Shown: piece after piece, positions 4,301 to 10,837 of the stretch | Layout of the letters: each line of letters starts with the position of its first letter | Position numbering within the stretch: the stretch's first letter is position 1 | From: a virus | Direction: 5' to 3' (one strand) | Virus record (IMG/VR): IMGVR_UViG_3300025276_000044 | Coordinates: 1 to 52,358 of that record | DNA: 52,358 nt | The notes under the pieces: model-generated | What the model was told of the DNA's origin: nothing | Database searches by the model: none | What the model saw: the letters and a program-made list of their open reading frames with translations, nothing else | Program-made: the position numbers and the translations under genes

Positions 4301-4678
4301 ATGGAATTGAAAAAAAATCAAACACTACACGCCTTCGGCATTTTAACTGAATATAGACCTTGGGGTAAGTATGAAGTATTGCTTAATAGCAATGATGTTA
4401 AAGTAAAACGTATTACTGTTAATCCTAATAGTAGATTATCATACCAATACCATGAAAAAAGGAGAGAACAATGGATGGTAGTAAGTGGTTCCTTAACTAT
4501 TATTTTAGATGATGAGAAGGTATTTAGAGAACCTGGAGAAACAATTCATATACCTTTGGGTGCTAAACATAGAGCGTGGAATGAAACTGACGATCCAGTT
4601 GTATTTATAGAAGTTCAAACTGGAGATTATTTTGGTGAAGATGATATTATTAGATTAGAAGATGATTATAATAGATAA
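4301..4678 (+). CDS. mannose-6-phosphate isomerase type II-like cupin
   Basis: This is a 125-residue single-domain cupin matching the C-terminal isomerase domain of ManC/AlgA-type enzymes. RPWGKYEVL at 19-27 is the family entry motif. The metal site is QYHEKRREQW (49-58, with His51 and Glu56) plus GETIHIPLGAKHR (79-91, with His90). Known family members interconvert fructose-6-phosphate and mannose-6-phosphate for surface polysaccharide synthesis. It starts 3 bases after the LamG gene. It may act on host capsule precursors, or be a repurposed sugar-binding cupin. Motifs are intact. Confidence 0.8.
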   Translation: MELKKNQTLHAFGILTEYRPWGKYEVLLNSNDVKVKRITVNPNSRLSYQYHEKRREQWMVVSGSLTIILDDEKVFREPGETIHIPLGAKHRAWNETDDPVVFIEVQTGDYFGEDDIIRLEDDYNR

Positions 4679-5268: not shown

Positions 5269-5817
5269 ATGAAAACAAGAATAGGCTATATAATAGTAGC
5301 AGCGTTTTGGATAGTAGTAATGCTGCTAGTATCAACAAAAACACAAGCACAACAACCTAATATGTGTGATTCACTATCGTATTCAACTGTAGTAGACAGT
5401 ACAACTTGGAATACATTAATGGTAACTGGAAGTAATAGTGGTAATTGGTTTTTTGTGGATTCTATAGATTGGAATTTTACAGCATGTAATGCAGTAGCAT
5501 GTTATGTACCACAAGGTAACGATCCATATTATTTTCCATTAATACAACCAACAGACACAGTTAAATTATGTTATGATGCTTTTGTATATTCTATGGGGGC
5601 AATGACAGTATGCAATCACTGTGATTCATTAATATACGACTTTATGTCTGATACATGGATAACATATAACTCACAAGGTAATACTACAGGAATAGAAGAG
5701 TTAATTAAAAACGAAGGTATGTATAACATGATATATGATCTACAAGGTAGAGAGCTTAAACAAGCTCCCAAAGGTAAAATGTACATAAGAAATAGAAAAC
5801 TAACAATAACTAAATAA
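5269..5817 (+). CDS. secreted protein with T9SS-like C-terminal sorting domain
   Basis: This encodes a 182-residue protein. Residues 1-27 form a Sec signal peptide (hydrophobic core at 7-22, likely cleavage after Ala27 in KTQAQ). The mature part carries paired cysteines, including CNHCDS. The last ~35 residues (YDLQGRELKQ, then KMYIRNRKLTITK) resemble the short T9SS type A sorting domains of Bacteroidota, with the typical D-L-x-G-R turn and final basic strand. The tail is closely similar to that of the next gene, so the two probably share one export route to the host surface. Body unknown. Confidence 0.75.
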   Translation: MKTRIGYIIVAAFWIVVMLLVSTKTQAQQPNMCDSLSYSTVVDSTTWNTLMVTGSNSGNWFFVDSIDWNFTACNAVACYVPQGNDPYYFPLIQPTDTVKLCYDAFVYSMGAMTVCNHCDSLIYDFMSDTWITYNSQGNTTGIEELIKNEGMYNMIYDLQGRELKQAPKGKMYIRNRKLTITK

Positions 5818-5827
5818 AATTAAAACA

Positions 5828-7609
5828 ATGAAAAAAACACTAATACTACTAATACTAACAATTTTAGTAGCGTGCACAACAACAAAAGAATGTTGCTCAC
5901 AAACATTTGTAAGCACAACCCCTGAAAATAAAAATATTGTACTTGAAGAATTTACAGGTATACACTGTACATTCTGTCCTGATGGGCATGTAATAGCTCA
6001 AAACTTATATAATAGCAATTCCGGAAATGTTACTTTAATAAATATTCATGTAGGTAGTTATGCTTCACCTTACCCAGGTGAACCAGATTTTAGAACAAAT
6101 TTCGGTTCAGCAATTGATGCTCAAGCTCAAGTAGCAGGTTATCCTGCAGGAACTGTAAATAGACACCAATTTGCAATGTCGCAAGGTGGAGGTACAGCAA
6201 TGAGTAGAAGTGATTGGGCAACAGCTGGTAGTTATATGTTAGCAGATAATTCTCCAGTTAATATTGGAATAATGTCAAATGTAGACATTGTAGCAAACAC
6301 ACTTAATGTTGATGTTGAAGTATATTATACAGACTCAACAGTAGTATTAAATAATTATTTAAACGTATTCGTATTACAAAATAATGTAGCAGGTCCACAA
6401 GTTGGGGCTCAATCATTTAATCCAGGTGCAATTATTTCTGGACCTTGGAACCCAACATATAATCACAACCATATGTTTCGCCATTCATTAACAGGGCAAT
6501 GGGGAGATATGATATCAAACCCACTACCAGGTTCATTTTACACATTTACTTATACTTGGATTCTACCAACAGATATTAATGGTGTTAGTTTAGATATAAC
6601 TAATTTAGAAATTGCAGCGTTTATTGCAGAGGGTAATCAAGAAATTATTACAGGAGAAGTAAATACTCCATCATTATTATTTTTAAATTCATATGATGCT
6701 AATGTAACTACATCTACAGCTAAAGATGTTATTTGTGCTAGTGAAACTGATATTGAAATTACATTTAGAAATTATGGAAATCAAGCATTAACATCATTAG
6801 ACTTAACATATGATATTAATGGTGGGGCATCTGTTATACATAATTGGGTTGGTAATTTAGCTCCAGGTGCTCAAGAAATAGTAACTATTACTAATGTTCC
6901 TTTTGCTCCTCTAGCTAATAATACAGTTACATGGTTAGCTACTAATCCTAATGGACAAGTAGATCAAAATACAAATAATAATTCTAATATTTCAATATTT
7001 AAACATTTGAACTTATCTGGTGATGTAATACCTGGGATTACTGCAGGTACAATTGATGTATCTATATTTACTGATGGATATGGATCTGAAACAACATGGG
7101 AAATTGTTGATGAAAGTGGAAATGTATATGGTTCTGGAGGGCCATATTCTAATAATACTCAATATAATGAAACAGCATATACAGCAGTATTTCCTAATTG
7201 TTTTGATTTCAAATTATATGACTCATATGGTGATGGAATGATGGATAATGGTATTGGATCAGTATTAGTAACAGATCAAAATAATAATATTATATTTGAA
7301 GGGGATGCAAATAATTTAATAAATTTTACAGAATTAGATACTTATTTTCAATCAACGGGTGGAACTCTTAATTCATGGGAATGTACACCATTTGGATGTG
7401 TTGACTTAGGTATTGGTTTTGGAGCGTATATGACGCAATTAGAATGTGAATCTGACACTATTACTGGGTGTTATATTATAAGCAGTATAAACGAAATTGA
7501 AAATTCTGATATTTATGGTAAGATGTATGACTTATTAGGTAGAGAAGTAACTAATATTAGATTAAATACAATGTACATTAGAAATCAAAAATTATATATA
7601 AATAAATAA
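5828..7609 (+). CDS. Omp28/thioredoxin-like exported protein with T9SS-like tail
   Basis: This encodes a 593-residue protein. A signal sequence (1-25) contains LVAC at 13-16, a possible lipobox. A thioredoxin-like Omp28-type domain follows: LEEFTGIHCTFCPDGH, with the redox pair Cys47 and Cys50, then an AGYPAGTVNRH stretch. The middle is beta-sandwich-like (DLTYDINGG, CARDB-like). The last 42 residues (MYDLLGREV, then MYIRNQKLYINK) mirror the sorting tail of the preceding gene. Family knowledge places Omp28 proteins at the outer membrane. A surface thiol or adhesion role in the infected host is inferred. Whether lipidated or T9SS-anchored is open. Confidence 0.8.
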   Translation: MKKTLILLILTILVACTTTKECCSQTFVSTTPENKNIVLEEFTGIHCTFCPDGHVIAQNLYNSNSGNVTLINIHVGSYASPYPGEPDFRTNFGSAIDAQAQVAGYPAGTVNRHQFAMSQGGGTAMSRSDWATAGSYMLADNSPVNIGIMSNVDIVANTLNVDVEVYYTDSTVVLNNYLNVFVLQNNVAGPQVGAQSFNPGAIISGPWNPTYNHNHMFRHSLTGQWGDMISNPLPGSFYTFTYTWILPTDINGVSLDITNLEIAAFIAEGNQEIITGEVNTPSLLFLNSYDANVTTSTAKDVICASETDIEITFRNYGNQALTSLDLTYDINGGASVIHNWVGNLAPGAQEIVTITNVPFAPLANNTVTWLATNPNGQVDQNTNNNSNISIFKHLNLSGDVIPGITAGTIDVSIFTDGYGSETTWEIVDESGNVYGSGGPYSNNTQYNETAYTAVFPNCFDFKLYDSYGDGMMDNGIGSVLVTDQNNNIIFEGDANNLINFTELDTYFQSTGGTLNSWECTPFGCVDLGIGFGAYMTQLECESDTITGCYIISSINEIENSDIYGKMYDLLGREVTNIRLNTMYIRNQKLYINK

Positions 7610-7610
7610 T

Positions 7611-8681
7611 ATGAACATGACTAAACACATCAATCAACCATTTATTACTATTTTGACTTGGGTATTATTATCAACAACTATACTTATAGCTGTTAATAAG
7701 GTTTGGTCTAATAATACAATACATTTTAAGGAGGTAAATAATAAATTAATCAATGTTTTATGGCAAGATGCTTCGAGATGGGATGCAAATACTGCTAAAA
7801 GGGTTGCTGAAATTAATCCCGATAAATTTATTATAAACATTGATGGGCCTTATTCACTATCAACATCAACAACTGGTCCTCATCCTATGCAATTGAAAGA
7901 ATTTATTGATACATTAGTAAATGTTTATGGTTGGAGTGGAGTATTAGTAATGCATCCTGATTGTAATAAATTAGAATTTAAACATGATTGGAGTAATGGA
8001 TTAATGTGGTTTAACGATGGTTGGAAGTTATATGCAGATTATATGAAAGTATTAAATAATACATTAAAATCGCATAAACTACCGTTATTTACGGAGTTAT
8101 TAATTGAAACTGAAGGATCTGGTATGACTAGTAAAGCTAATGTGCAGAGTAAGATATTTGATAATTTTAGAAGTTATATAAATGATTCATCTATTAAACT
8201 ATCAGCAACATCTGATTGGAATAAAAAATCATTTCCTGCTTCTGCTGATTATTATTATGCACAAATGTATGATGTATGTTATAGTAAAAAAGATGGTGGA
8301 ATTCCATCATTATGTGGGATTAATAATCCTAATGTAAAAGATAGAGTAAATACACTTGTAACAAATATGGTTAGTAGTATTACTTTAAATAGGTTAGAAG
8401 ATGTTACCTTTATATTTACATATGCTCCATATGCTAAATGTCCTTCAATTACAGAAAAAAATACAACAAACACATCAACATTACCTTCTTTAATTTGTAA
8501 ATGTCCTCATTTTGGTAAACCTTACTGTCCTACATTAGATTCTCCAATGTTTGGGGGTGATTCAGTGGATTATTGGAATAAATCCCAATTTAGTGCCTTT
8601 TCTAAAGAATTTAAGAATTCAATTAATAATGCAAGTGTAGGTATATGGCATTGTGAAAGTCCAATAAAAAATTGGAAATGA
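7611..8681 (+). CDS. membrane-anchored extracytoplasmic protein, TIM-barrel-like
   Basis: This encodes a 356-residue protein with a single hydrophobic N-terminal segment (about 11-29) and no clear cleavage site, so probably an anchor with the rest outside the cytoplasm. Strand-like segments KFIINIDGPY, GVLVMHP, FTELLIET, YYYAQMYDV and VTFIFTYAP occur in the order expected for a glycosidase-type barrel, but no catalytic pair can be assigned. A cysteine cluster (ICKCPHFGKPYC) near residue 300 suggests disulfides. It starts 1 base after the Omp28-like gene, in the same apparent export-related operon. Function unknown. Confidence 0.7.
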   Translation: MNMTKHINQPFITILTWVLLSTTILIAVNKVWSNNTIHFKEVNNKLINVLWQDASRWDANTAKRVAEINPDKFIINIDGPYSLSTSTTGPHPMQLKEFIDTLVNVYGWSGVLVMHPDCNKLEFKHDWSNGLMWFNDGWKLYADYMKVLNNTLKSHKLPLFTELLIETEGSGMTSKANVQSKIFDNFRSYINDSSIKLSATSDWNKKSFPASADYYYAQMYDVCYSKKDGGIPSLCGINNPNVKDRVNTLVTNMVSSITLNRLEDVTFIFTYAPYAKCPSITEKNTTNTSTLPSLICKCPHFGKPYCPTLDSPMFGGDSVDYWNKSQFSAFSKEFKNSINNASVGIWHCESPIKNWK

Positions 8682-10411: not shown

Positions 10412-10837
10412 ATGAAAAAAATGATTTTAACATTAGCTTTAGGACTGCTTGTTGTAGCCTCAACTAATGCGCAAAACACGAAGGGAGACTGGTACGTAGG
10501 TACAGGAGATGTCTCAAACGTTGCTTGGACTGATTGGTCTATAGCTCCATCACTAGGATATGGTGTAACGGATAAACTTATGGTAGGGTTCAACCTATCT
10601 CAAGTAGATTCTACAGCAGACTTGATGATAGATTTACATGCTAGATACTTTATGACATTAGGTGGTCATGATGTTTATGCATATGCTTCTACTGAAGGTT
10701 TGAACACTGATAATCTTAGTTTAGGATTAGGTAAAATGTTTACCGTACACAAAGGTGTATATTTAGATCCTAAAATTGTGTATAATTTAGCAGATAAAAC
10801 TACTAACATGATGTTAGGGTTTGGTCTTAAGTTTTAA
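10412..10837 (+). CDS. outer-membrane beta-barrel protein
   Basis: This encodes a 141-residue protein. Residues 1-20 are a signal peptide (KKMILTLALGLLVVASTNA, cut before Gln). About eight alternating amphipathic strands follow: WYVGTGDV, SIAPSLGYGV, KLMVGFNLSQV, LMIDLHARYF, VYAYASTEG, LSLGLGKMF, YLDPKIVYNL and MMLGFGLKF. The final residue is Phe, the usual signal for barrel assembly. The size fits a small eight-stranded OmpX/OmpW-like barrel. A phage-encoded outer-membrane protein could mask or replace a receptor, or change permeability. This is an inference. Confidence 0.8.
   Translation: MKKMILTLALGLLVVASTNAQNTKGDWYVGTGDVSNVAWTDWSIAPSLGYGVTDKLMVGFNLSQVDSTADLMIDLHARYFMTLGGHDVYAYASTEGLNTDNLSLGLGKMFTVHKGVYLDPKIVYNLADKTTNMMLGFGLKF

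Follow-up and report, generated by a model that had tools for sequence, protein, structure and literature searches.

Short type IX secretion-type tails on exported proteins of a probable marine Bacteroidota phage and its relatives

Two adjacent genes on a viral contig encode exported proteins that end in a common short tail, which raises the question of whether the phage supplies cargo for the type IX secretion system (T9SS) of its host. We analysed the whole stretch of DNA, hereafter the window, which is an IMG/VR virus record of 52,358 bases. The two open reading frames (ORFs) lie side by side on the plus strand at 5269-5817 (gene 1) and 5828-7609 (gene 2), where the earlier note had placed them. 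Both products have an N-terminal export signal and a common C-terminal tail of ~42 residues. From sequence comparisons, we read the two genes as probable cargo for the host T9SS, and the window as a section of a tailed-phage genome, with a host that we infer to be a marine bacterium of the Bacteroidota; the probability of these readings, taken jointly, is roughly 0.8.

Genes for a baseplate wedge protein, a primase and an exonuclease are present in the window and place the two genes in the context of a phage genome. Shine–Dalgarno-like sites precede only four of the 47 window genes, a scarcity expected with a Bacteroidota host, and the host order is probably Flavobacteriales. A lytic lifestyle, as the earlier note had it, could not be confirmed from a 52 kb IMG/VR virus record that is possibly a fragment. 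Three further genes of the window deserve mention. A phage-encoded cupin (4301-4678) matches the C-terminal domain of mannose-6-phosphate isomerase (PF01050, E 5e-32) and possibly has a role in surface sugar metabolism. The next gene downstream of gene 2 (7611-8681) encodes a 356-aa product with an export-like N-terminus, for which neither a sorting tail nor a family match was found. A small exported beta-barrel-like protein with a weak OMP_b-brl match is encoded at 10412-10837; its relatives are located near tail-bearing genes in contigs L021, L048, and L050.

Gene 1 encodes an exported protein of 182 aa, assigned by its ORF and an alignment of 36 members to an Ig-like family that has six cysteines and ends in a short T9SS-type tail. 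Its signal peptide, MKTRIGYIIVAAFWIVVMLLVSTKTQAQ (5269-5352), was recognized by a hydrophobic core, a TQAQ end, a predicted helix at residues 4-23 and a heuristic score. It is followed by a beta-sandwich core with six cysteines (5365-5688) in the conserved arrangement CDS...CY...DT.K.CYD...C..CDSL. The remainder of the protein is a putative short type A-like sorting domain (5689-5814) of 42 residues, extending from a predicted sortase site, T/GI, to the C-terminus. The family alignment and a feature check located motif B, YDLQGR (5734-5751), and motif D, GKMYI (5773-5787), the latter as GxxYI instead of the usual GxYI. Motif E is represented by the basic C-terminal strand NRKLTITK (5791-5814; model strands 170-174 and 177-181). 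The full tail reads IYDLQGRELKQAPKGKMYIRNRKLTITK, with the layout NTT/GIEEL...IYDLQGREL...GKMYIRNRK. The AlphaFold model of gene 1 had a mean pLDDT of 79.5, with most of the core above 80. A fold search of the PDB gave nothing significant, only generic Ig-like folds at E >0.05, and scans of Pfam, NCBIfam and PHROG found no family for gene 1, the 36 family members or the tails. Pairwise dN/dS within the gene 1 family, which occurs in dozens of marine phages, was 0.09-0.43. Judged by their sequences, both this family and the thioredoxin-fold proteins that accompany it are under purifying selection.

Gene 2 encodes a 593-aa exported protein with an Omp28-type thioredoxin fold and a tail like that of gene 1. 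The fold and the CTFC motif named in the earlier note were both recovered: the match to the Omp28 family PF11551 had an E of 7.7e-17 (62.1 bits against a gathering cut-off of 34.9), and CTFC, the CxxC of the thioredoxin-like domain, occupies residues 47-50 (5966-5977), with C47 and C50 invariant across seven homologues. NF033782 matched at E 1.6e-26 with 93.1 bits, which is under its 150-bit cut-off, so gene 2 was not assigned to that subfamily. The Porphyromonas gingivalis Omp28 structure 2r2c matched at E 0.012; compared with the Omp28 family, gene 2 is extended at its C-terminus by beta domains and the sorting-type tail. Among its top structural matches was P. gingivalis HBP35 (PDB 5y1a), a surface protein that combines a thioredoxin-fold domain with a T9SS C-terminal domain (CTD) and whose T9SS signal has been mapped to the last 22 residues (PMC11285876). 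The CTD of HBP35 is longer, and the two proteins have no clear sequence homology. The model of gene 2, with an overall pLDDT of 60, is of poor quality across the thioredoxin and tail regions, and fold matches, including that to 5y1a, therefore provide weak support.

The two ends of gene 2 set it apart. Its N-terminal signal, read from the sequence (5828-5875), has a terminal lipobox at residues 13-16 (LVAC) and may be of the signal peptidase II type; the product may accordingly be an outer-membrane lipoprotein in this phage. In the copy of phage contig L001 and in the cellular homologues, by contrast with gene 2 of the window, the signal peptide is of the ordinary kind. Residues 5-27 recur in phage contig L002, in a protein that is otherwise different (LTSCATPKECCSQTF). 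The common stretch, about the first 27 residues of gene 2 (window 5828-5908; L002 690-821), comprises a lipoprotein-like signal and KECCSQTF, which suggests modular exchange of export signals. The tail, MYDLLGREVTNIRLNTMYIRNQKLYINK, comprises 41 residues from a predicted S/SI site (7484-7606). A feature check found motif B as YDLLGR (7526-7543), while the motif D region, LNTMYI (7562-7579), is without the conserved glycine; the corresponding segments of its relatives are PSGKMYI in L001 and SVGTMYI in L056. Against L001, dN/dS was 0.68 for the tail, a value resting on 41 codons, and 0.16 for the rest of the gene. Gene 2 is rare among phages, and by its sequence the window copy is the poorest member of the tail-bearing set.

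The earlier note had described the two tails correctly and likened them to short T9SS sorting domains. This likeness held on comparison with the short CTDs characterized experimentally in Prevotella intermedia, more weakly for gene 2 owing to its lipobox and missing motif D glycine. The P. intermedia short CTDs are 40-55 residues long, are preferentially cleaved at PT/GI, and have an invariant glycine in motifs B and D; motif B also contains a tyrosine and a basic residue, motif D contains Tyr-Ile, and motif E is basic. Both forms, short as well as long, undergo cleavage and glycosylation (PMC11969387). The phage tails resemble them in length, in a PT/GI-type site with isoleucine at +2, in the residues of motifs B and E, in the Gly and Tyr-Ile of motif D, and in belonging to proteins with a signal peptide and a C-terminal tail position. 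They differ in being phage-encoded, in coming from a different class of Bacteroidota, and in having mostly GxxYI in motif D.

We quantified this resemblance on 45 non-redundant tails. A recognizable cleavage-like site was present in 36, of which 28 had isoleucine at +2 and 34 had a length of 38-55 aa. Motif B contained Gly-basic in all 44 scored tails, with tyrosine in most and phenylalanine in the rest. Motif D was GxxYI rather than GxYI in 40 of 43 scored tails, its glycine being kept in nearly all; GxxYI was also found in a chromosomal protein, L104, on a 1.06 Mb contig that encodes PorU. A combined motif (cleavage-like site, YD..GR, G..YI and the C-terminus) was detected in 31/45 tails, in 0/599 other ORFs of the same loci and in 0/90,000 shuffled tails; this confinement indicates that the resemblance among tails exceeds chance. 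By a simple hydropathy and charge rule, which is not a trained predictor, 49/52 tail proteins had a signal-peptide-like N-terminus, compared to 41/475 other ORFs (Fisher p = 3e-40).

The profile search against type A sorting models that the earlier note had proposed left the tails of both proteins unmatched, an outcome that the note had listed under refutation. Neither TIGR04183 nor PF18962 scored above cut-off on these tails or on those of 36 family members, and PF18962 had no match anywhere in the window record. The failure of the curated models is explained if the tails are a short form of the CTD. For tails of intermediate length, including that of phage contig L053 (E 0.0087), the sole match was TIGR04183, below threshold. 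In the gene 1 family profile, the tail portion matched residues 640-682 of PDB 4kca at E 0.007, ending in GIYIRNGKKYV; this entry is an endo-1,5-alpha-L-arabinanase, a glycosidase and not a phage protein, with a C-terminus that resembles the tail of the gene 1 family.

Profile–profile comparison linked the phage tails to canonical CTDs in two steps. In hhalign, phage tails matched tails encoded on cellular contigs of >80 kb with a probability of 98.7% (E 4e-16, score 72.8, compared to a maximum of 17.5 in a column-permuted control). These chromosomal short tails in turn matched canonical CTDs with 94.9% (E 4.6e-8); since resemblance to phage tails was how they had been found, it is the match to canonical CTDs alone that counts as independent. 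The direct comparison of phage tails to canonical CTDs was weak (3% with -glob 0, 51% by default) and was not relied on.

Cellular homologues of gene 2 provided a further comparison. Omp28 homologues from four Flavobacteriales metagenome-assembled genomes (MAGs) align along the N-terminal half of gene 2 or more, with 36-53% identity over the alignment and 42-59% in the best segments, and have a full canonical type A CTD exactly where the phage proteins have the short tail. Their genomes contain 31-57 TIGR04183 domains each, plus PorU and SprA. The cellular relatives of gene 2 are CTD proteins, and their genomes are T9SS-positive.

Homologues of the gene 1 core were found in 27/296 Flavobacteriales genomes searched. 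On cellular contigs of genomes with a T9SS, several of these homologues terminate in a different short tail, LFYIYDDGTVEKK; this second class was counted 39 times in genome G203, which also has 52 long CTDs. It was also found at the end of an 821-aa repeat protein of phage contig L051. The consensus of this class is KxxKVxDxLGRExxxxNxxLFYIYDDGTVEKKxIxx (L113, L118, L129-L151), and in small marine Flavobacteriales each genome encodes dozens of proteins with such an end (G203, G136, G089, G050, G111). T9SS models did not match L118, the one member tested. Going by these sequences, the second class is probably an unannotated sorting signal. P. intermedia is the only species reported to have both long and short CTDs (PMC11969387); the Flavobacteriales genomes examined here appear to have both as well, so that short CTDs would not be confined to P. 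intermedia.

A scan of IMG/VR with the tail alignment yielded 52 contigs, and in every one the tail was C-terminal, 0-7 residues before the stop codon. Most carriers belong to the six-cysteine Ig-like beta-sandwich family of gene 1; others are thioredoxin-fold proteins. Among the latter are Omp28-type proteins (window, L001, L056), the AhpC/TSA-like protein of L006 and a CGPC protein of 432-434 aa (L016 and L055, contigs of 231 kb and 297 kb). A thioredoxin-fold gene lies immediately beside a six-cysteine gene in four contigs: the window, L001, L006 and L016. A tblastn search with both proteins and the tail against 50,697 phage records returned chance matches only, and the tail was found in no isolate phage among them. 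Published short CTDs, the tails of homologues, the profile chain, and the occurrence in 52 contigs are four lines of evidence that identify the tail as a candidate short type A T9SS sorting domain.

Two observations concern the contigs themselves. Phage groEL is present in 12 tail loci (L004, L007, L008, L009, L020, L028, L032, L041 and others), and groES, dnaJ or hsp20 in several tail loci, near the tail gene. Contig L056 (CAJQJC010000069.1) is filed in a Candidatus Pelagibacter MAG but is a relative of the window phage with several phage genes in common. We rejected it as cellular evidence on account of these genes and of a genome without T9SS, and from its sequence it looks misbinned.

The alternative that we take most seriously, while giving it somewhat less than an even chance, concerns gene 2 only: its product would be an outer-membrane lipoprotein with a decaying relic tail, and T9SS cargo would be limited to gene 1 and its relatives. 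The lipobox, a signal region common with the unrelated L002 protein, the lost motif D glycine and the elevated dN/dS of the tail are what this explanation would predict, and the NCBIfam family bears the name Omp28 outer membrane lipoprotein. Gene 2 nevertheless keeps MYIRN and a basic end, signals and motifs are intact in L001 and L056, and the high tail dN/dS derives from few codons. A different objection applies to all tails, which might be periplasmic C-terminal modules for interaction or stability with no function in secretion. The silence of the curated T9SS models and the altered motif D would fit such a module; its strictly C-terminal position, the signal peptides, the replacement of a true CTD relative to the homologues, the agreement with published short CTDs down to the cleavage motif, and the presence of similar tails in PorU- and SprA-positive genomes make it unlikely.

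Two further explanations leave less room. Having clear Flavobacteriales homologues and, in the case of gene 2, few phage counterparts, the genes might have been picked up from a host by chance and without benefit to the phage. We find this improbable, as the gene 1 family has been retained by dozens of marine phages at the dN/dS given above and the form of the tail is peculiar to phage copies. Ig-like folds are common on virions, and the tail-bearing proteins might accordingly decorate virions rather than the cell surface; this is the explanation to which we give least credence. Nearly all members have signal peptides, the cellular homologues have T9SS-type tails, and none of the 599 other ORFs, the baseplate and tail genes of the window among them, has the tail.

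Under our preferred reading, that the products of both genes are T9SS cargo, the Sec pathway would carry them to the periplasm via their N-terminal signals. There, the T9SS translocon and PorV would recognize the short CTD as a three-motif (B, D, E) type A form, and the PorU sortase would remove it at the T/GI-type site. The mature domain would then be displayed on the cell surface or released; in this phage, the gene 2 product might alternatively stay in the outer membrane as a lipoprotein. The earlier note had suggested superinfection exclusion, adhesion or redox change of surface proteins as candidate roles. More tentatively, a phage-made coat could alter the surface of the infected cell, for instance if it hid phage receptors exported by the T9SS or competed with them, a role that we regard as possible though rather doubtful. 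Flavobacterium columnare under phage attack acquires mutations in T9SS and gliding genes (PMC9233685). These mutations indicate that T9SS-dependent surface features matter for infection and make masking or exclusion the most economical guess.

The earlier note had considered T9SS export of proteins by a lytic phage notable; the principle of phage-encoded T9SS cargo is already known, and the tails described here are a widespread variant of it. Cryophage (2020) encodes proteins with T9SS type A sorting domains and was proposed to hijack the host system (PMC7468147), and crAss-like phages have T9SS domains near BACON proteins (PMC6949934); our literature search for earlier phage tails of this kind returned these two only. 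Cryophage cargo consists of endoglucanase, GH39 and PA14 proteins with recognizable type A domains in one phage group. In contrast, the present tails are short, belong to other cargo families and occur in about fifty contigs. What is new is the short CTD form on phage proteins at this breadth, the six-cysteine family, the thioredoxin-fold genes that recur beside it, and signs of short CTDs beyond P. intermedia.

It is an even bet, in our view, that a surface-remodelling kit under one short T9SS tag is widespread among marine Bacteroidota phages, that the kit consists of small disulfide-rich Ig-like proteins, sometimes with thioredoxin-fold partners, with which infected cells would display a phage-made coat, and that the tag class is also a major, unannotated one in Flavobacteriales. 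As annotation models miss this class of putative short sorting tails, T9SS cargo is probably under-listed in marine Flavobacteriales and in the phages that infect them. If the shared kit is real, a phage-made coat would be a direct candidate for superinfection exclusion, and surface coating through the host T9SS would be a common strategy of marine Bacteroidota phages rather than the curiosity of one phage.
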